DNA of 64,000 nt, taken from the NCBI GenBank assembly GCA_000827325.1, contig KN832870.1, positions 2,232,001-2,296,000 on the forward strand. The letters are read 5' to 3'. The translations under genes and the position numbers were made by a program. This DNA comes from Oidiodendron maius Zn. Its lineage: Eukaryota; Ascomycota; Leotiomycetes; Myxotrichaceae. The notes under the pieces are model-generated. The model was not told the origin of the DNA and did not search any database. It was given only the letters and a program-made list of their open reading frames with translations. Positions 2,258 to 57,109 of the stretch are shown here, in pieces. Position 1 is the first letter of the stretch, and each line of letters opens with the position of its first letter.

Positions 2258-5200
2258 TCACTCCTCCATCACTTCATTCTCCTCCTCGTCTTCGCTGTCT
2301 TCTCCATCCTCCCCATCGTCCCCTCCGTCTCCATAATACCCACCGTGCACCTCCTCCATGTGCGGATATATCGTATCCGCATCAAACTTGCCCCCACAGA
2401 GGTAACACCAATGTGCGCCACAGTCTGGAACCGTGCAGTTTATGTGGTTGCAGCCTCTGATTTTTTCAGTCGGCGTCCCGCATCCAGGACATGCTTTAAC
2501 ATTTGCAAGAGGCATGCGCGCCCATTCAGCCGCCGCGGCCTCCTGGCAATGGTCGCAGACCCAGTCTCTCCACTCAGGTGGAGCACCTGCCGCGCACACG
2601 CGCTCCATGTACCGCTTTGCGAGCCCACACCGCTGGCACCATCCGTAAATCCACGTTCCTCTCTCCTCCACTGCCGTCTGGAGGTTGCCAACTGCGTGGA
2701 TCCCCATCCCATATCTAGCCAAAGTCTTGGCCGTCGGCGCTCGGCGACAAAAGGGGCAAAAGAGCGCTGCGGTGTTGATGATTCGCCCGGCGGCATTCAG
2801 TCCATACCACCCATCCAAGCAAGCTCTGCAAATTCGCTGGTGACAGCCTGTGCGGCCACACGCGAGTATGAGATCTGTTTTGCGTTTGGATGAGTAGCAA
2901 AGGGAGCACGTTCTTGACTCCGTGCGGCGGCCCGAGATCCAATGCTGCAGCTGTAGAATCACCGCTGGTATGTTTCGAACCAGCTTTCCATTCAGGGTGA
3001 GATTTCTCTGAGACGAGGATGGGAGCAATTCCACCCTGTTACAGAAGTCCTCCACGCCACATGTGGATATTGTGTGGTAAAGAGACCGATTATTAAATGG
3101 CTCCGGGAGCTTCCCATCATTCCTGATCAGCCAGGAGTAGGAGTTTTCCTTGGACAGTTCAGATGCTGTGGTCTCCACTTCTATAATTGTTTTGTGGCCA
3201 GACTCGCAGATGTGACATCGGTAATTTGCCATATCGCCTGGTCGGTGATTGATAGGCCATATGATCCTGCTTAGACACACCGAACACTCGACTATAGGCA
3301 CTTGTTGTCCCGACCTGCAGTAGTAACACTTCGGTCGGACATTCAAGTTTTCTGCGCAGTATACGACGTACTGAGCGCGACAAGTACGCATACTGCATTC
3401 AACCCAGGTAACCATTGTTGATTCTGTGTCGTCTATGGTAACATGTCTATCAATATTCTCCAGACGTTCTTCTTCGGATGCCCAATCGGACCAAAAGCAT
3501 AAGCAAAATCCACAGTTACCATCCTCACCCATGATAGTTACTGAGCGTGGAAACTCACAAGATTTGCAAATCATGTTTGGTCCTAGTGAGGCCTTGCTCT
3601 TTTTTGGAGTCCAGCCAACTTGTGCTGTCAGAGTTGTACCCAAGTTAAGTTCGAGCATCTTATAGGATACTAATCGCTCAAACAAGTTGCGATCCCGAGA
3701 TAGTAGTAATGTCCGAGTCTCTATCTTGTTCATTGAGTTGCCTGTGGCCGTCATTCTCATGCGATGCGCCTTATCAGCATCCAGAAGTAACGACAGACAA
3801 TTCACGTTCCATATTTCTGGGATATTAGGGTCATTCCAACGACGTCTCCAAAGCAACATCTCCTCCTCGGCCGCTTGCAAGAAGGGTGAGGTCCCAAGAC
3901 GAATACTTAGTGCTGCGAGCAACGCCGCTGGTCTAGCTGATAGCATCGTTCCTGGAACTATAAGGTGTAGCAAAATCTTCCAAAATCTGCGCTCATATTT
4001 GGCAGTGGCGAGAGCAATGGGCATCCTTGGTATGTCTGCCTCCGGCGCTCTAGCAATGTGAGTCGGCATGTCCACCAAGGAATCGATGTAGGTGAGTCTT
4101 GTCAGAACACGACCAAGCCTCCGGAGGATCTTGTAGTCGCAAGATCGACCAATTTCAAGAAGTTCGTCGCGCGTAAAGGACGTGATGGCCCTATTGTCAT
4201 CTTCATCTGCATTATCGTTTGTTGACATCTCCGTGAACGCCAGTGTGGGGTCCAGACAGACACATGGGAATCGTAGTTCCGGTGGCACAGAATTTATCGC
4301 CTCGAGGACTTCAGCAGTGTAGTCATAGGACTCCTCGAGCCAGGTCTTCACTCGTGCCTTCTCGCCAGAGTCTGTAATGCGATCAATTTCGAGACCGAAG
4401 ACAGCAATGAGTTCGTCTCGGGCATCGTTTTCGCGATCATTGCACACTGCCCTCCAAAGCGAACCAAAAACTGGGTTTATAGTTATTGACGCGACATCAT
4501 CTCGAATTATCTTTCTTAGATTATCAACAGCAAGGATCCTATAGTGTGGGTCTGCAGTGTATCGTTGAGCGAAAGACATGACTGCCGTCTTTTTCTTTGG
4601 CAAATGCATCTTAAGAGAGTCTGGTGAAATTGGAGTAGTTGTGTAAGCCCAGTCTCTTGTAATGTCTGTATTTGAGGAATACACAGACAAATCTATCTCA
4701 TCCTTAAGCTGCGTGATACATTCCAATGAATTATATCTCATTAAGTAGGCTGGCAATGCAGTTGCCTCTGAAATGCCAGCCTTTTCCGCCCCCATCCAGG
4801 CCAAGAGAATTTCTACTGTTACTTTCGAAATGTTTGCTGGTTTGAGATCACGAAGGGAGAAGCAGGCTCCACCTGTCACCGCAGAGAGGTAGAGATAGTA
4901 AGCTGCATTGTTGAAGCCCATTCCATTATCTAGGAAGGCGAATACTTGGGCTGTCTTGCCCCCAAAGCGACCGGAGAGGACATCGACTGCCGAAATCCAA
5001 TCCTGGAAGTACGGACCAAAACTGCCAAAAGATGTTTCGACTTGGAGCGCCGCAAGCTCGGGACCGAGGCATGAGCCTCGGTCAGCTACAGATCCGTTAG
5101 TAAGTGTATGCGGCGGAGCATCAGTGTAAAGGAATATAATCGTAGTAGCATCCTCCCGCATGAGTTCATATGCTCTCGCTAAGGCTGTCTTAATGGCTTC

Positions 5201-5485
5201 TGGGCCATCTCCGCCACCCATAGGCTTCAACTGCTTCACCATCTGAATAAGGTCCACTTCCGGCTCGTCAGTCATGGACGAAGGAGAGAGCCATCCAGAC
5301 CAGTTTAAAAGGTCTTCGTCGCAGTAGTCTTTGTACGCGAGGATCCCTATGCGCGAAAAACAGTCCGTCAAAGTGGAAATAGGTATTATTCGTAAGAGAG
5401 ATAATTGAAGAGAGGTAAGGTAGTTCTCCATCGAGTACGTCGCATCGACTAGAATGAGAAGGTCGTACATATCCGATGACTCCAT
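2258..5485 (-). CDS. vWA domain + RING-IBR-RING (RBR) E3 ubiquitin ligase-like protein
   Basis: Intronless ORF of 1,075 residues. The N-terminus is a von Willebrand A domain (about 5-230) with an intact-looking MIDAS start, D-A-T-Y-S at 13-17, and a second acidic site at FLYTDAPPH (about 118-126). The middle (about 240-630) is helical and unassigned. A cysteine-rich region at about 640-760 has several C-x2-C pairs. The C-terminus is an RBR module: RING1 about 860-914, IBR about 950-980, RING2/Rcat about 999-1030. RING2 carries GCNHINC, so the catalytic Cys of the RBR transthiolation mechanism is about residue 1012, followed by the usual His. The last 25 residues are Asp/Glu-rich. In RBR enzymes ubiquitin passes from E2 to the Rcat Cys and then to substrate; the vWA domain may recruit substrate (inference). 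The start at 5485 is the first in-frame ATG before the vWA fold. Confidence 0.85.
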   Translation of the reverse strand: MESSDMYDLLILVDATYSMENYLTSLQLSLLRIIPISTLTDCFSRIGILAYKDYCDEDLLNWSGWLSPSSMTDEPEVDLIQMVKQLKPMGGGDGPEAIKTALARAYELMREDATTIIFLYTDAPPHTLTNGSVADRGSCLGPELAALQVETSFGSFGPYFQDWISAVDVLSGRFGGKTAQVFAFLDNGMGFNNAAYYLYLSAVTGGACFSLRDLKPANISKVTVEILLAWMGAEKAGISEATALPAYLMRYNSLECITQLKDEIDLSVYSSNTDITRDWAYTTTPISPDSLKMHLPKKKTAVMSFAQRYTADPHYRILAVDNLRKIIRDDVASITINPVFGSLWRAVCNDRENDARDELIAVFGLEIDRITDSGEKARVKTWLEESYDYTAEVLEAINSVPPELRFPCVCLDPTLAFTEMSTNDNADEDDNRAITSFTRDELLEIGRSCDYKILRRLGRVLTRLTYIDSLVDMPTHIARAPEADIPRMPIALATAKYERRFWKILLHLIVPGTMLSARPAALLAALSIRLGTSPFLQAAEEEMLLWRRRWNDPNIPEIWNVNCLSLLLDADKAHRMRMTATGNSMNKIETRTLLLSRDRNLFERLVSYKMLELNLGTTLTAQVGWTPKKSKASLGPNMICKSCEFPRSVTIMGEDGNCGFCLCFWSDWASEEERLENIDRHVTIDDTESTMVTWVECSMRTCRAQYVVYCAENLNVRPKCYYCRSGQQVPIVECSVCLSRIIWPINHRPGDMANYRCHICESGHKTIIEVETTASELSKENSYSWLIRNDGKLPEPFNNRSLYHTISTCGVEDFCNRVELLPSSSQRNLTLNGKLVRNIPAVILQLQHWISGRRTESRTCSLCYSSKRKTDLILACGRTGCHQRICRACLDGWYGLNAAGRIINTAALFCPFCRRAPTAKTLARYGMGIHAVGNLQTAVEERGTWIYGWCQRCGLAKRYMERVCAAGAPPEWRDWVCDHCQEAAAAEWARMPLANVKACPGCGTPTEKIRGCNHINCTVPDCGAHWCYLCGGKFDADTIYPHMEEVHGGYYGDGGDDGEDGEDSEDEEENEVMEE

Positions 5486-6277
5486 CTTCGACCAGCGAGG
5501 AGGACTTTTGTCATACGGAGAAGCAGCTTCTGGACGACTTCTCGACTCATGAAAGACAAGAAATAATGGACTTGAGAATCTTGTCCGAGAGATGTAACCT
5601 TTAATATCTATACTGTTTTATAATTATAAAGGAAATATACCATACCGCACACTCATACGGTAAGGTTGACTCATGCAGATATCCTTGAGGAGATAGACTT
5701 TTCAACATGGGCGGGAGCCTGCTGTTGACTCATCACTTGAGGAGAATATGTCTGTGATGAGATCAAATATAAAGTAGGCATGTGCAGCTACCTGTTGATT
5801 GGTCGATTACCACCATGACCTGTGTACAAGATGTTGTGAGTCGAAAAAGTCTGGGAGACCCAAGGCGTGGATCCGATCAGGCAACCATAACCAACACAGC
5901 CTCGAAAAAAGGGCTTGACACAACTTTAACAGAAAATAGTATTGCTTTACAAGGTCTGATTTTTGATCCATTATTTAGCATACGTAGTCATCGTATGAGA
6001 TGATTTGATATAATAGCATTGAGCGAAATCGGTGTCCTGCTCTTAATCCACATATCCTGCAAGTACTTTCCGAGATTTTGGTTACCTGCCACTTTCTTCA
6101 CAGATTCCAAATCACCCCACCAGTGCCACCTCTACTATTCCAAGGTGATACTAGTACTGCTAAGCATTTGAGAGGCTGAGAAAGATGTAATCGTGCATAA
6201 TATGTTGCCTCTGTACAAAACCACAAATCTGCTACTCTTCATCTCACGACCTACATGCTCTAGGGTCATTCGGCTCC
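5486..6277. other. Intergenic between RBR gene and membrane-protein gene
   Basis: About 790 AT-rich bases holding the RBR gene promoter (minus strand) and the 3' side of the next minus-strand gene. A short plus-strand frame at 5782-6003 has no features. Nothing else recognised. Confidence 0.4.
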
Positions 6278-41521: not shown

Positions 41522-43333
41522 ATGAGTGCAGAGGAAGCCTCTACGAATGGCACGACGCTGGGCGAGCGAACCGCCATCGGTATCTCGTTCGGCAACTCGA
41601 ACAGCTCTATTGCATATACAACCATCGAGGACAAGGCTGAGGTGATTGCTAATGAAGACGGAGGTACGTGACTATTATTATGAATTTCTAAATTTGGAAC
41701 TATCATTGATATAGATCACAGACCGCCAAATCCCCTCTATCTTATCGTACGTTGATGGAGAGGAGTACAACGGCCAGCAGGCTAAGCAACAGCTCATCCG
41801 TAATAACAAGAACACTGTCGCATATTTCCGGGATTACATTGGACAAGAGTATGGTGTCCTTCCAGTTCTGTAATCTGCCTTTATTAATATGCAGACAGCT
41901 TCAAATCAATAGACCCTACACACTGCCATGCCTCAGCACACCCGCAGGCTCATGAAGCCACCGTCGCATTTACAATCCAGGACAAGGAAAGCGGCCCACA
42001 ATCCACTGTGACTGTATCCGAAATCGCCACTAGACAATTTAAACGATTAGCAAAATCTTCGTCTGATTTTCTGGGCAAGACGGTTGACTCTGCTGTGGTC
42101 ACGATTCCTACCAACTTCACTGAAGCACAAAAGGCGGCTTTGATTGCGTCTGCCGCCGAGGCAGGATTGGAGGTGCTACAACTGATCCATGAGCCCATTG
42201 CTGCGCTACTTGCCTATGACGCCAGGCCGGAGTCCAAAGTCAGCGACAAAATGGTAGTAGTGGCCGACCTTGGTGGCACTCGCTCCGATGTGGCAGTCAT
42301 CGCCTCGCGCGGAGGAATGTACACGATTCTGGCAACTGCGCATGATTATGAGTATACTGGTGTGCACCTTGACAAGGTACTGCAAGACCACTTTGCCAAG
42401 GAATTCATCAAATGGAACACAACCGATCCGCGTGAAAGCCAACGTTCGCTAGCCAAGCTCAAGCTCGAAGCTGAAGCAACGAAGAAAGCCTTGAGCATCG
42501 GTACCAACGCAAATTTCTCCGTTGAATCATTAGCTGAGGGTATCGATTTTGCCAGCACAATTAATCGTTTACGCTACGAGACTATTGCACGAAAAGTCTT
42601 TGAGGGTTTCAATCGCCTGATCGAAAGCGTCGTAAAGAAAGCGGGCTTAGATGTGCTAGATATCGACGAGGTCATACTATCTGGTGGCACCTCTCACACT
42701 CCCAAAATAGCTTCAAATATGACTGCCATCTTCCCTCCCACCACAACTATACTTGCTCCGAGCACCACTGCCACCGCCATCAATCCTTCAGAGCTCCAAG
42801 CTAGAGGAGCCGCCCTACAAGCCAGCCTCATCCAGGAATTTGAGAAAGAAGACATCGAACAGAGTACTCACCCTGCTGTCACGACTGTCAAACATCTCAC
42901 AAATGCCATCGGTGTTCTGAGTATTTCTGGGGATGAAAGCCATGGTGTATTCACACCCATTATCGCCACTGAAACCGCTATCCCCGCTAGAAGAACCATT
43001 CATATCAACGCGCCTAAGGAAGGAGGAGATATCTTGGTCAAGATTGTCGAGGGAGGAAGCCACATCAAGGTCTCTCAGGTTGAGAAGCCTTCCAAGGAAG
43101 CGAATGGGGAAGATGAAGAAGATAGCGATGATGACAGTGACGAGGAACCCGAGGAGCGGAGAGAGAAGGTGTGGAAGGTGGGGAAAGTCCTAGCGGAAGC
43201 AGCGGTCAAGGGTGTCAAGAAGGGTGGAAAAGTCGAGGTCATGATTAATGTTGCCGGAGACTTAGGGGTCACCATCACAGCTCGAGAGGTCGGCGCCAAA
43301 AATGGTGTTAGAGGTGCTCTATCGTCACCTTGA
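41522..43333 (+). CDS. SSZ1: Ribosome-associated Hsp70-like chaperone SSZ1
   Basis: Three exons, 41522-41663, 41722-41848 and 41899-43333, giving 567 residues. The Hsp70 nucleotide-binding domain is visible: AIGISFGNSNSSIAYTTIED, DRQIPSILSYVDGEEYNGQQ, TIPTNFTEAQKAALIASAAE, LIHEPIAALLAYDAR, VVVADLGGTRSDVAVIASRG and ILSGGTSHTPKIASNM. Compared with canonical Hsp70, the phosphate loops are altered (GISFGNSNSS instead of GIDLGTTNS), as known for Ssz1, which binds but hardly hydrolyses ATP. The C-terminal substrate-binding part is shortened and holds an acidic stretch (EDEEDSDDDSDEEPEE, about 497-512). Ssz1 pairs with zuotin to form the ribosome-associated complex RAC, which stimulates Ssb at the tunnel exit. 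Confidence 0.9.
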
Positions 43334-53484: not shown

Positions 53485-56400
53485 TTATTTCGCTACTAAA
53501 CTATTCGTCTGTTTTTGGGCAAGGTCCACCAGTCTCAGTTCCTGTCTAGTCTTAGCAAGGCCATATACAGGGAGATTAGCTTGTCCACAAACAGCCTACC
53601 TCGTTTGAAAACTTCCTAAACTCTGGCATTGCACTGATACTCTGAAATTTGTCAACATCACTACTCGTAAAGCCCGCAACGCAGAAGCCATTGAAATTGA
53701 CACCGATTGTGCTCATCACCTCCGCCGTATCTGCTGGACTCAGAGACGGCTTTGCCATCTCTTTCCAATCATTTTTTGCTAGCAATCTTTCTTGTCTATA
53801 TTAGTATGTGCTAAACCACATTGGCATAAACTGCGACAGAAGATAGTTATCGAACTTACTTGGCTGAAGCTGAAGATGGCGAAGGGCTTGAGGCTCGGAG
53901 GCCGGAAGAGGTGGACCCAAAAAGGCCACTCGAACCAAACTCGTTGTTTGGGATAGTTCCACTAGCATTGGTTGCTAAACCAGTGGATGGGAGACTTGAT
54001 CTAGAGAGACCTGCAAAGAGATTGCTCGAAGTAGCTCCGGTTGCATTATCTGGTAAAGAAGTAGCCGATTTGCTATTTGACCCAAAAAGCCCGGTCGAAC
54101 TAAAGCTACTTGGGGTAGCTCCACTAGCATTGGTTGCTGAAGCGGAAGATGGGAGACTTGATCCAAAAAGCCCGCCTGATGCAAAGTGACTGCTTGAAGT
54201 AGCCCTGTTATTATCGGCTGCTAAAGAACCAGTCGATGTATCAGGAGTCATCTTCGCAAGCCCAGCTCCCGCAGGCGGCTTACAGTCTGCGAGAAAGGAA
54301 AATGGCCTTGGAGGTTGGGCCGTGGCCGAATCTCCTGAGATTTTTCCCGTTGAGCCGGATGACGAAGAGGAGAGATTGAATAGGCTATATGATTTGGATG
54401 AGAAGAGTGATTCGGGAGGGTTGGGAGGAGCCCGTTTTCCAGAAGCTGGAACCTTGGTCGAGCGCGAGTGGGTCTTGACCTTTGATTCCGGGACTACCTC
54501 TGATTCGGGGACCTCCTTTGACCGAAATATAAGAGCTATATTAGTTAGCCTGAAAGTATAACACATCTTGGACGGAGGCTAACAAGTCTGAGGGCGCTTT
54601 TCATACTGTTTGCATATCCGGGCGCCGTTCTGTAGGATCTCCAATCTCCTGGCCAATGCCTCTCTTTCAAGTGTTTTCCCCTCATCTTCCCCAGCAATTT
54701 TCTTAATTATATCCAAATCCATTGAAAATACTGCTGTAGGGGCAAATTCTTTCGAGAGTCCCTTTATAATAGGTGCTTGGATAGCAAGTGTAGGGACGTT
54801 GTCGGTAAATAAGTTAAGCGCAACCTGAATTGAATCAGTGGTCTGTGCCTGACATAATGACGAAGAATTGAGGGGTATCATACCTCGTAGAAAGAGTTCA
54901 TATTATCCAAGGCTTCTTCAGCAGCCATCAAATCCATTTTCAAACTACTTGTTGATTCCATAGCTGACATGATACGCGAGATATCCTGAATCGACACTGT
55001 TTGACTCCCAGCAATTTCTTCCTTTATTCTCCTTTCTAACTCAACTTTGACATGATCCAATCTCGGTTTTTGACTATTTTTAATGAAATGGATATTTGTT
55101 GTCAGGGGATAATCTTGGTGAACTTCGAGAAGCTCGTCTAACTTTCTGTAAGCCAATTTCAACTTTTCCTCCATGATTGGGATCAACCAGAATTTCAAAA
55201 TCTTTTCGCACGTATCATCATCGGTTAGATACTTTAGTAAGAGCTCGAGAAATTTGACTGCCGTATCCCATACGTTTCTTATATGGCATTGAGCAAGCCG
55301 AGACCATGGGCGGCTATACTGACGAAACAGCTCACCCACAAGGAGTGGATTTGGCAAGCCAGGTAACTATAAAATTCCACATGTCAGTTTGCTTGATCGG
55401 GTCGTTCGTATTAACGGGTGTGAAATTATACTTCTCGGCCACGACTGTGCTTCAAAAGAGTGCATGCCGCCTGAATTGCTTCCTCACGCGTCTGACGCAA
55501 GCCAGTACAACACTCATCTGTGGCTACCTTGGTCCGTTCTGTTTCTTGAGCTTCGTTATCTTGTATTTTCCAATAGGAGCCTTTTTTTCGTATGTTATCT
55601 GCAAATTCAAAATGCTTGTTTATGATGCATGCGCAAAGTCGCCTCTCAGGATCTGTATCAACTTGGAAGAACCTGTCTTCGTAGTGACCCCGCACAGCAT
55701 CTCCACATATTCGCTGAAAACTCTCGCTGAGTGAAGTCAAGAAAGACCGCTGTTCATCAACAGTCGCCCGACTAGGTCCGAGTTTGGATTGCGTCAAATT
55801 TATGGCCACAATTTTAGTTGTAATGTCTTCCACGAGCTTTGGAAGCTCCGTACGAATCTGGTCAAAGAGGACTTTGCTCAGTCGAGTTCGTAGGAAAGCG
55901 ATTCCAACTGTATGAGGAGGAAGAGAACTAAAGTTGCTTTCCTTGAAAAATAGCGTCTCCCTCGTGTCTCGCATTCCAAGTTGGTTTTTCTCTTTCTCCA
56001 TGTCAAGATTCCGAACCACATGCCAACCGAGAGAAAACTTGACCTTCTCGTTGCTGGCCAATGCAATATATTCTTGCTCGCTGGCCGATCCTCTCTCTAA
56101 GGTATCAGGTTTAGTGATAATTCCAAGGGTGCGTAGGCCGTGTCCGTCCACCTCTTTGGCCCTGCTAAGAATTATTTGATTGCTGGCATCGGATTTCGCT
56201 GACACAACAGCCAGGATGATGCTTCGAGGACTTTCTAAGTATGTTGACACAAGGTTGTGCACTAGAGTTACATCTTGAGATGTTTGTTGCCCAATGGCTG
56301 AATGGATGAGCCCAGGAAGATCAACAAGAGTAAGTGGAGGCTGGCTTGGGCCGCTAAATTCGATCCGCAAAACATCATTCGAAAATGACTTGATTCCTGA

Positions 56401-56805
56401 CGAGAGCCCCATGGCAGCGGTGGCACTTTTAAACAGCTGCTCAAAATCATTTGTGGATTTTAGTTCGTGGTGGAATCCTAATAATTCATCGCGCTCTAAT
56501 GTTGATCTATCATTTCCAGGATGAATTGAGATCTTGATTTCGGTCATAGCAGCTCTGCGAAGGATGACCTCCGTGGCGAATCTCGTGCATAGAGTCTCCT
56601 GCCTGGGGAATGGAATTCCTGATATCGCCTCCAATACAGAACTTTTCCCACTAGACTGGTCTCCGCACACAATGAGTTGTGGCAGCGCGACAAGGTCACT
56701 CAAGCCTCGAGCTCGAAGCGTATCAACTACATCAAGCAAGTCCAGCTGTTCAACAGATTGCAATTTCTGCAATGAAGGTAGCTCAAAGCTCTCTGCTGTA
56801 CCCAT
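53485..56805 (-). CDS. Dynamin-family GTPase with FG/GLFG tail and GLEBS-like C-terminus
   Basis: Six exons (56805-55432, 55366-54884, 54824-54584, 54535-53860, 53795-53600, 53541-53485) give 1,008 residues with every junction in phase. GTPase domain about 1-330: P-loop GDQSSGKSS at 48-56, DLPG at 162-165, TKPD at 231-234. The middle/stalk runs to about 615, with RGRELPGLPNPLLVGELFRQ. A GED follows (about 620-690, ALNLFTDNVPTLAIQAP). After that comes a Ser/Ala/Thr-rich tail with GLFGS at about 821, 848 and 903, plus LFAGL and EFGSS. The end, QSISAMPEFRKFSNEELRLV, resembles the Nup98 GLEBS motif (EELRLxDY) that binds RAE1/Gle2. Intron 4 (donor GTTAGC, branch CTAACTAAT) skips a TAG at 54579, and introns 4 and 5 link the parts. 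Alternatively these are two genes, but only 13 bases would separate the first stop from the next ATG. Confidence 0.72.
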
Positions 56806-56932: not shown

Positions 56933-57109
56933 AAACTTGAGTTTGGATACTTGGTGACTTGAGCGTGGATAGTTGCGGACTTGAGCGTGGATACTTGCAG
57001 ACTTGAGCGTGGATACTTGCAGACTTGAGCGTGGATACTTGCAGACTTGAGCCTGGCTACTTGCAGACTTGAGCGTGGATTCTTGCAGACTTGAGCGCGG
57101 ATACTTGCA
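56933..57109. repeat. Minisatellite: 8 x 22-bp tandem repeat
   Basis: Eight head-to-tail copies of a 22-base unit, consensus CAGACTTGAGCGTGGATACTTG. The three central copies are identical or nearly so and the outer copies carry one to several changes. 22 is not a multiple of three, and the open frames that cross it are a by-product of the repeat. It lies 130-305 bases upstream of the dynamin-family start codon. Confidence 0.9.

Follow-up and report, generated by a model that had tools for sequence, protein, structure and literature searches.

Gene structure and a relative

One gene in the genome of Oidiodendron maius Zn raises the question of whether a dynamin-family GTPase has been joined to a tail built from nucleoporin motifs and, if so, whether this tail would bring the enzyme to nuclear pores. 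The gene lies in a stretch of 64,000 nucleotides, here called the window (contig KN832870.1, positions 2,232,001 to 2,296,000), and runs on the minus strand from 56805 to 53485, with six exons and five introns and a product of 1008 amino acids. Removal of the three introns predicted at the start of and within the tail (54536-54583, 53796-53859 and 53542-53599) leaves one frame open to the stop codon ending at 53485, so that coordinates and frame stand as originally proposed, but the numbering as introns 4-6 was wrong: with five introns in all, these are introns 3, 4 and 5 (phases 1, 2 and 0). Judged from its sequence, the gene likely encodes a fusion of an Mx-type dynamin GTPase with a tail that carries short nuclear-pore motifs.

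A single relative was detected among 58 pattern-matched genome contig stretches (JAPYPR010000045.1, 4324-6721; hereafter L001). It comes from an Erythrobacter metagenomic assembly (MAG), where its contig is 8155 bases long. As the gene has spliceosomal-type introns, this contig must be eukaryotic contamination, and likeness to the window gene suggests that it is fungal. Spliced by hand, L001 encodes 718 amino acids, identical to the window protein at 202 of 325 aligned residues (62%) in the GTPase part and at 351 of 681 over the head. Scanning the contaminated MAG with Dynamin_N gave five matches, the best two of which have the coordinates of the L001 gene; the remaining three are short P-loop stretches elsewhere. 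An open reading frame at 1990-2280 of the L001 contig resembles, by eye, the start of a MADS-box protein. No further relatives were found in viral contigs, searched with the head, a whole-protein alignment, the last 83 residues, and P-loop and GLEBS patterns that need exact short matches (an intron at that site would hide a gene from the GLEBS pattern), and plasmid sequences searched with the last 83 residues gave no match.

The features of the gene are as follows.

55432..56805, minus strand: exon 1, with the start codon, the GTPase domain and the first part of the stalk (on the basis of PF00350, PF01031 and motifs)
54884..55366, minus strand: exon 2, 483 nt, middle stalk, opening with LPGLPNPLLVGELF; boundaries are those found in L001
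54584..54824, minus strand: exon 3, 241 nt as in L001, GED-like end of the stalk, unrecognized by the Pfam GED model
54536..54583, minus strand: intron 3, 48 nt, with donor GTTAGC containing an in-frame TAG and acceptor end GCTAACTAATATAG
53860..54535, minus strand: exon 4, Ser/Ala/Gly/Thr-rich tail with 27-residue tandem units, three GLFGS and one GLSRSS
53600..53795, minus strand: exon 5, a putative linker, then the initial portion of the GLEBS-like core (FQSISAMPEFRKFSNE)
53485..53541, minus strand: exon 6, the rest of the GLEBS-like core (ELRLVDLAQKQTNSLVAK) and the stop codon

Several other elements were observed in the window. A minisatellite of eight 22-bp copies (56935-57109, 90% matches) is located 130 bp upstream of the dynamin start codon and may be part of the dynamin promoter. 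Neighboring genes encode a carboxypeptidase S10, a lipoyl synthase and a glycosyl hydrolase 7 whose nearest PDB matches are fungal cellobiohydrolases; together with the short introns, these neighbors fit a filamentous fungus as host. An 1118-residue open reading frame (2264-5617) combines a von Willebrand A-like domain near its start with IBR matches at its end, a pairing that looks unusual, and an HSP70-like fragment is present at 41888-43330 (Pfam E 1.1e-55, profile positions 106-418 of 599).

The dynamin head

Membership in the dynamin family was borne out by Pfam, which lists Dynamin_N (PF00350, E 3.7e-31) along with Dynamin_M, the model of the central region of dynamins (PF01031, E 2.6e-21), for the whole protein and no PH domain. 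The GTPase motifs G1-G4 are intact and common to MxA (GDQSSGKSS at 48-56, T74, DLPG at 162-165 and TKPD at 231-234). Among solved structures in the PDB, the best relatives of the head are Mx1 (E 3.2e-34) and then Mx2 (3.9e-31), followed by DNM1L (5.7e-28), Dynamin-A (2.1e-26), Vps1 (4.8e-26) and dynamin-3 (6.1e-21); when L001 was added to the head profile, Mx proteins remained at the top, with DNM1L and Vps1 next. Ranked by score, with solved structures as the only reference, the head is thus nearer to Mx than to Dnm1, Vps1, Mgm1 or dynamin. A GED had also been assigned at the end of the stalk, for which position and conservation with L001 speak, but the Pfam GED model matches neither the window protein nor L001, and the best PDB matches stop near profile position 373; the region is called GED-like here.

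Mx proteins of animals have antiviral activity. Fungal orthologues of Mx, named MxF1 and MxF2, were reported in 2025 and described as uncharacterized, with a strong turnover in copy number, from five in Aspergillus fumigatus to none in Saccharomyces cerevisiae (Langley et al.; PMC11789081, excerpt). Because its closest solved structures are Mx1 and Mx2, the window head looks MxF-like and is best filed as such, a placement made by structure-match ranking, which applies to the group as a whole and does not separate MxF1 from MxF2. The window protein shares with MxF its fungal origin, the dynamin GTPase and central region, Mx1 and Mx2 as nearest solved structures, and the lack of a listed PH domain, and differs in its tail, FG or GLEBS tails being unmentioned for MxF in the excerpted text (PMC11789081). 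The original prediction of an undescribed system therefore has to be narrowed: the head is no new system, fungal MxF having been described in 2025 (PMC11789081, excerpt), and the tail is the part that would be new.

The junction between head and tail

Three introns are common to the window gene and L001, located before LPGLPN, after FYE and after the end of the stalk, while L001 has two extra introns in the GTPase part that are missing from the window gene. The last shared intron is the one at which the tail begins, and in both genes it follows a 241-nt exon, has phase 1 and opens with a GTTAG donor (GTTAGC in the window, GTTAGT in L001). This conservation of exon length, phase and donor answers much of the doubt raised by the weak GTTAGC site, and supports the proposed in-frame link of head and tail across an intron. 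Past this intron, L001 encodes 36 residues, acidic at the very end, with neither GLFG nor GLEBS. Since L001 lacks the tail, the tail was either gained in the lineage of the window or lost in that of L001, between which one relative cannot decide. A family scan of the contaminated MAG with PF21240, the Pfam model of the Nup98 GLEBS motif, gave no matches.

The GTTAG donor (54579-54583 in the window) holds an in-frame TAG, also found in L001 (6566), so that retention of the intron would yield a tail-less protein from both genes, ending with RPQTC in the window. In another explanation, dynamin and tail do not form one product: intron 3 would be mostly retained, with translation stopping at 54579, or spliced in another frame, and the tail would be a separate or spurious frame. 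Besides the non-canonical GTTAGC, a donor that looks stronger, GTATGA, is located 23 nt upstream, and splicing from it to the acceptor of intron 3 would change the frame, giving a protein of 741 amino acids without GLFG; an in-frame ATG is also present within intron 3, at 54566. However, combined with another acceptor (TTTCAG at 54550), GTATGA also leads into the tail frame, which is open for 240 codons, compared with 4 and 12 stops in the other two frames of exon 4. The two frames are only 48 nt apart, leaving little room for a tail promoter. Together with the equal exon length, phase and donor in L001, these points make separate products improbable.

The GLFG array

The tail was described as containing GLFGS three times, and these copies are indeed present, at residues 821, 848 and 903; the additional "LFG-type" motifs, by contrast, turned out to be LFS, LFN, LFA and one EFGS, none of them LFG. 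The segment spanning residues 700-925 (226 amino acids) consists to 68.6% of G, T, S, A, N, Q and P and contains four FG, three of them as GLFG, a number of GLFG reached in none of 100,000 shuffles of the segment. At the protein level, four units follow each other at spacings of 27, 27 and 28 residues (GLFGS, GLFGS, GLSRSS and GLFGS). Tandem copies can also be recognized in the DNA, where two 64-nt copies, 83% alike, lie 162 nt apart and three 26-nt copies surround the GLFGS motifs. As the GLFGS motifs are copies within a tandem array, one founder must have been multiplied and they do not count as three independent events. The differences between the 64-nt copies are spread evenly over codon positions 1-3 (3, 4 and 4), and selection on this stretch is therefore not evident. 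Outside the GLFG array, the beginning of the tail exon holds a short 18-bp repeat (1.9 copies, 54478-54512).

In Nup98 FG domains, the median number of FG is 43, at a spacing of one per 12.5 residues, and charges are few (PMC4283134, excerpt). FG density in the window is 1.8 per 100 residues in the segment and 3.3 in the array, compared with 6.3-10.3 in Nup98 FG domains, and the segment contains 8.0% Arg/Lys and 4.9% Asp/Glu, compared with 0.1-2.3% Arg/Lys in those domains. The expectation of a nucleoporin-like FG tail is weakened by the count of four FG in 226 residues. By composition, the tail, probably disordered, is no barrier-forming FG domain and would provide at most a few FG ligands. 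Such properties would also be expected if the tail were a lineage-specific, low-complexity extension created by repeat growth, with GLFG- and GLEBS-like parts that are coincidental or decayed and without function at the pore. The tandem array with its unbiased codon positions, the sparse FG and numerous charges, the absence of a tail from L001 and a Pfam score below threshold (see below) all speak for this explanation.

The GLEBS-like C-terminal end

In residues 975-997, the protein resembles the GLEBS motif of Nup98, more precisely its second half. E990 and E991, which are separated by intron 5, align with E201 and E202 of Nup98, known to form salt bridges with R216 and R172 of Rae1 (PMC3783196, excerpt), and an I(S/T)AM stretch is common to both proteins; position 997 is Leu in the window and Tyr in human Nup98. 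With the human GLEBS motif, confirmed from the PDB, as a reference, none of 100,000 shuffles of the 25-residue core scored as well as the core itself. The first half of the 57-residue motif is not detectable, 17,793 of 20,000 shuffles scoring as well.

Among 24,736 Pfam models, Nup98_GLEBS (PF21240) was the sole family listed for the tail, with an E-value of 0.015 (15.8 bits) on the last 83 residues and 0.11 (13 bits) on the 309-residue tail, both below the 27-bit cut-off of the family, and it was unlisted at E<=1 for the whole protein of 1008 residues. Matches of this kind have to be read with care: the same model gave matches under the cut-off at E<=10 in 8 of 14 prokaryote control genomes, and none above it. 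No Pfam match to the Nucleoporin2 domain was found in the whole protein (E<=1) or the tail (E<=10), and neither PADLOC on the last 83 residues nor NCBIfam on the 309-residue tail gave a match.

Searched against 177,635 PDB sequences, the last 83 residues gave eight matches at E<=10, the top three of which were all Nup98 GLEBS chains (4owr, 3mmy and 7byf, E 0.18-0.20), followed by another such chain in the next group (7vpg, E 0.32); none of the four is significant alone, and one Nup98 GLEBS chain matched is deposited as "Peptidase S59 domain-containing protein". Matches to S-layer, mevalonate kinase and AhpD proteins in the same search were read as chance. For the last 42 residues, all five matches listed were Nup98 GLEBS chains (E 0.09-0.65), including a diverged one, 9hcj (SISAMPQYNDRSFEELRFED).

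Profiles were also built from these sequences. Adding the window sequence to human GLEBS improved the match to 9hcj from E 1 to 7.3e-5 (12.8 to 25.8 bits), but as two designed TIM barrels, which are surely unrelated, rose as well (E 0.36-0.42 to 0.0013-0.0022, 14 to 22 bits), part of this gain must come from the plain helix-like EELR, and the test is only supportive. A three-row GLEBS profile gave 42 PDB matches, with eight Nup98-type sequences at E 1.5e-17 or better; those to other proteins were read as chance (TIM barrels at 2e-5, and others, mostly capsid VP3, at E>=0.18). Conversely, a profile of human and 9hcj GLEBS, which contains no window sequence, detected the tail with 27.8 bits (E 1.6e-7 among 2032 sequences, a value that is flattering because 9hcj was chosen with the help of the window sequence), compared with 5.8 bits for the best other open reading frame of the window outside the gene. 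On the last 83 residues it gave 30.3 bits, and the best of 100,000 shuffles reached 14.7.

In the profile searches, similarity of the C-terminal segment to GLEBS was thus present, and the likeness is beyond chance. What holds of the original prediction is the second half of the motif with its glutamate pair; the first half does not, and the Pfam score stays under the cut-off. These results also bear on the low-complexity extension: the GLEBS-like core lies outside the tandem array and across an intron, exceeds all 100,000 shuffles in two tests, and would be hard to obtain by chance within the same tail as GLFG motifs. An extension without pore function is accordingly seen as possible but rather unlikely.

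GLEBS motifs are not confined to Nup98, and the core might instead bind Bub3, a checkpoint relative of Gle2, in which case the protein would act at kinetochores. The GLEBS motifs of Bub1, BubR1 and Mad3 also contain a glutamate pair in salt bridges with Bub3 (PMC3061984, excerpt). However, the PDB matches listed for the tail include no Bub1 or Mad3 chain, Nup98 being the sole GLEBS protein among them (2I3S and 2I3T, the PDB entries with Bub1/Mad3-type GLEBS peptides, may be absent from the set searched), and Nup98 has the I(S/T)AM stretch as well. Binding to Bub3 is considered very improbable.

Proposed function

The family of the head, its junction with the tail and the motifs can be read in the sequence itself. 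The best reading of them, to which roughly even credence is given, is that of an MxF-type GTPase docked to Gle2/Rae1, and hence to nuclear pores, by a C-terminal tail of short motifs. According to this proposal, E990 and E991 of the GLEBS-like core would form salt bridges with Gle2 and fix the core on top of the beta-propeller of Gle2. The oligomerizing GTPase would in this way be concentrated at nuclear pores, or else on the mRNA and pre-60S cargo bound by Gle2, and the few GLFG motifs would make further, weak contacts, either with transport receptors or with the FG barrier. The Mx head could then act on passing material, most plausibly in defense against nuclear-entering or mobile elements, in a manner comparable with human MxB. 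Intron 3, with the stop codon in its donor, could serve as a switch between tailed and tail-less forms.

Like Nup98 and Nup116, the window protein combines GLFG motifs and a core resembling a Gle2-binding site within one segment. It differs from them in its four FG compared with a median of 43, in having only half of a GLEBS motif recognizable and no Nucleoporin2 domain listed, and in being joined to a dynamin. Human MX2 (MxB) is likewise an Mx-type GTPase linked to the pore, a location that would be shared by the window protein if the proposed targeting is right. It decorates the nuclear envelope with the involvement of its N-terminal sequence, and its anti-HIV activity depends on nucleoporins such as NUP98, NUP153 or NUP214, varying by cell line, although there is dispute over how far restriction relies on being at the nuclear envelope (PMC10224399, excerpt). 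MX2 requires its first 25 residues for placement at the nuclear envelope and meets nucleoporins through its N-terminal region, whereas in the window protein the motifs are C-terminal and themselves nucleoporin-like.

The tail might also be a mimic, not serving as an anchor at the pore but tying up Gle2/Rae1, or acting as an integrated decoy that baits attackers of Nup98-Gle2. Several proteins of animal viruses are reported to target Rae1-Nup98 (PMC9376891, excerpt), and the turnover of Mx genes was linked by the authors to conflict with viruses (PMC11789081, excerpt). However, these viral proteins attach to Rae1 in its RNA-binding groove, and the ORF6 tail showed no GLEBS contact (PMC9376891, excerpt); a GLEBS tail alone would therefore be a poor bait. 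No sequence feature separates bait from anchor, and a mimic is considered unlikely by a wide measure.

The docked MxF-type GTPase can be extended into a bolder proposal, which is regarded as doubtful: fungi, independently of mammalian MxB, may have placed an Mx-type GTPase at the pore by means of a Nup98-like GLFG/Gle2-binding tail, with a splice switch between pore-bound and free forms, where it would act as a barrier to viruses or mobile elements that enter the nucleus.

Novelty and significance

FG-rich tails may also occur in further dynamin entries from fungi. A dynamin joined to GLEBS or GLFG was absent from the titles and abstract starts of the open-licence PMC matches listed. On present sequence evidence, the new part is the nucleoporin-motif tail on an MxF-like dynamin, whose head is of a kind already known. 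If it does bind Gle2, the tail would provide a concrete hint of the working site of an MxF, a group called uncharacterized (PMC11789081, excerpt). A tail acting at the pore would provide a counterpart to the action of human MX2 there, reached by other means, and a natural example of an enzyme unrelated to nucleoporins that uses their motifs for targeting. Should the tail prove widespread, it would define a general class; if restricted to this species, it would point to a recent birth by tandem repeats.
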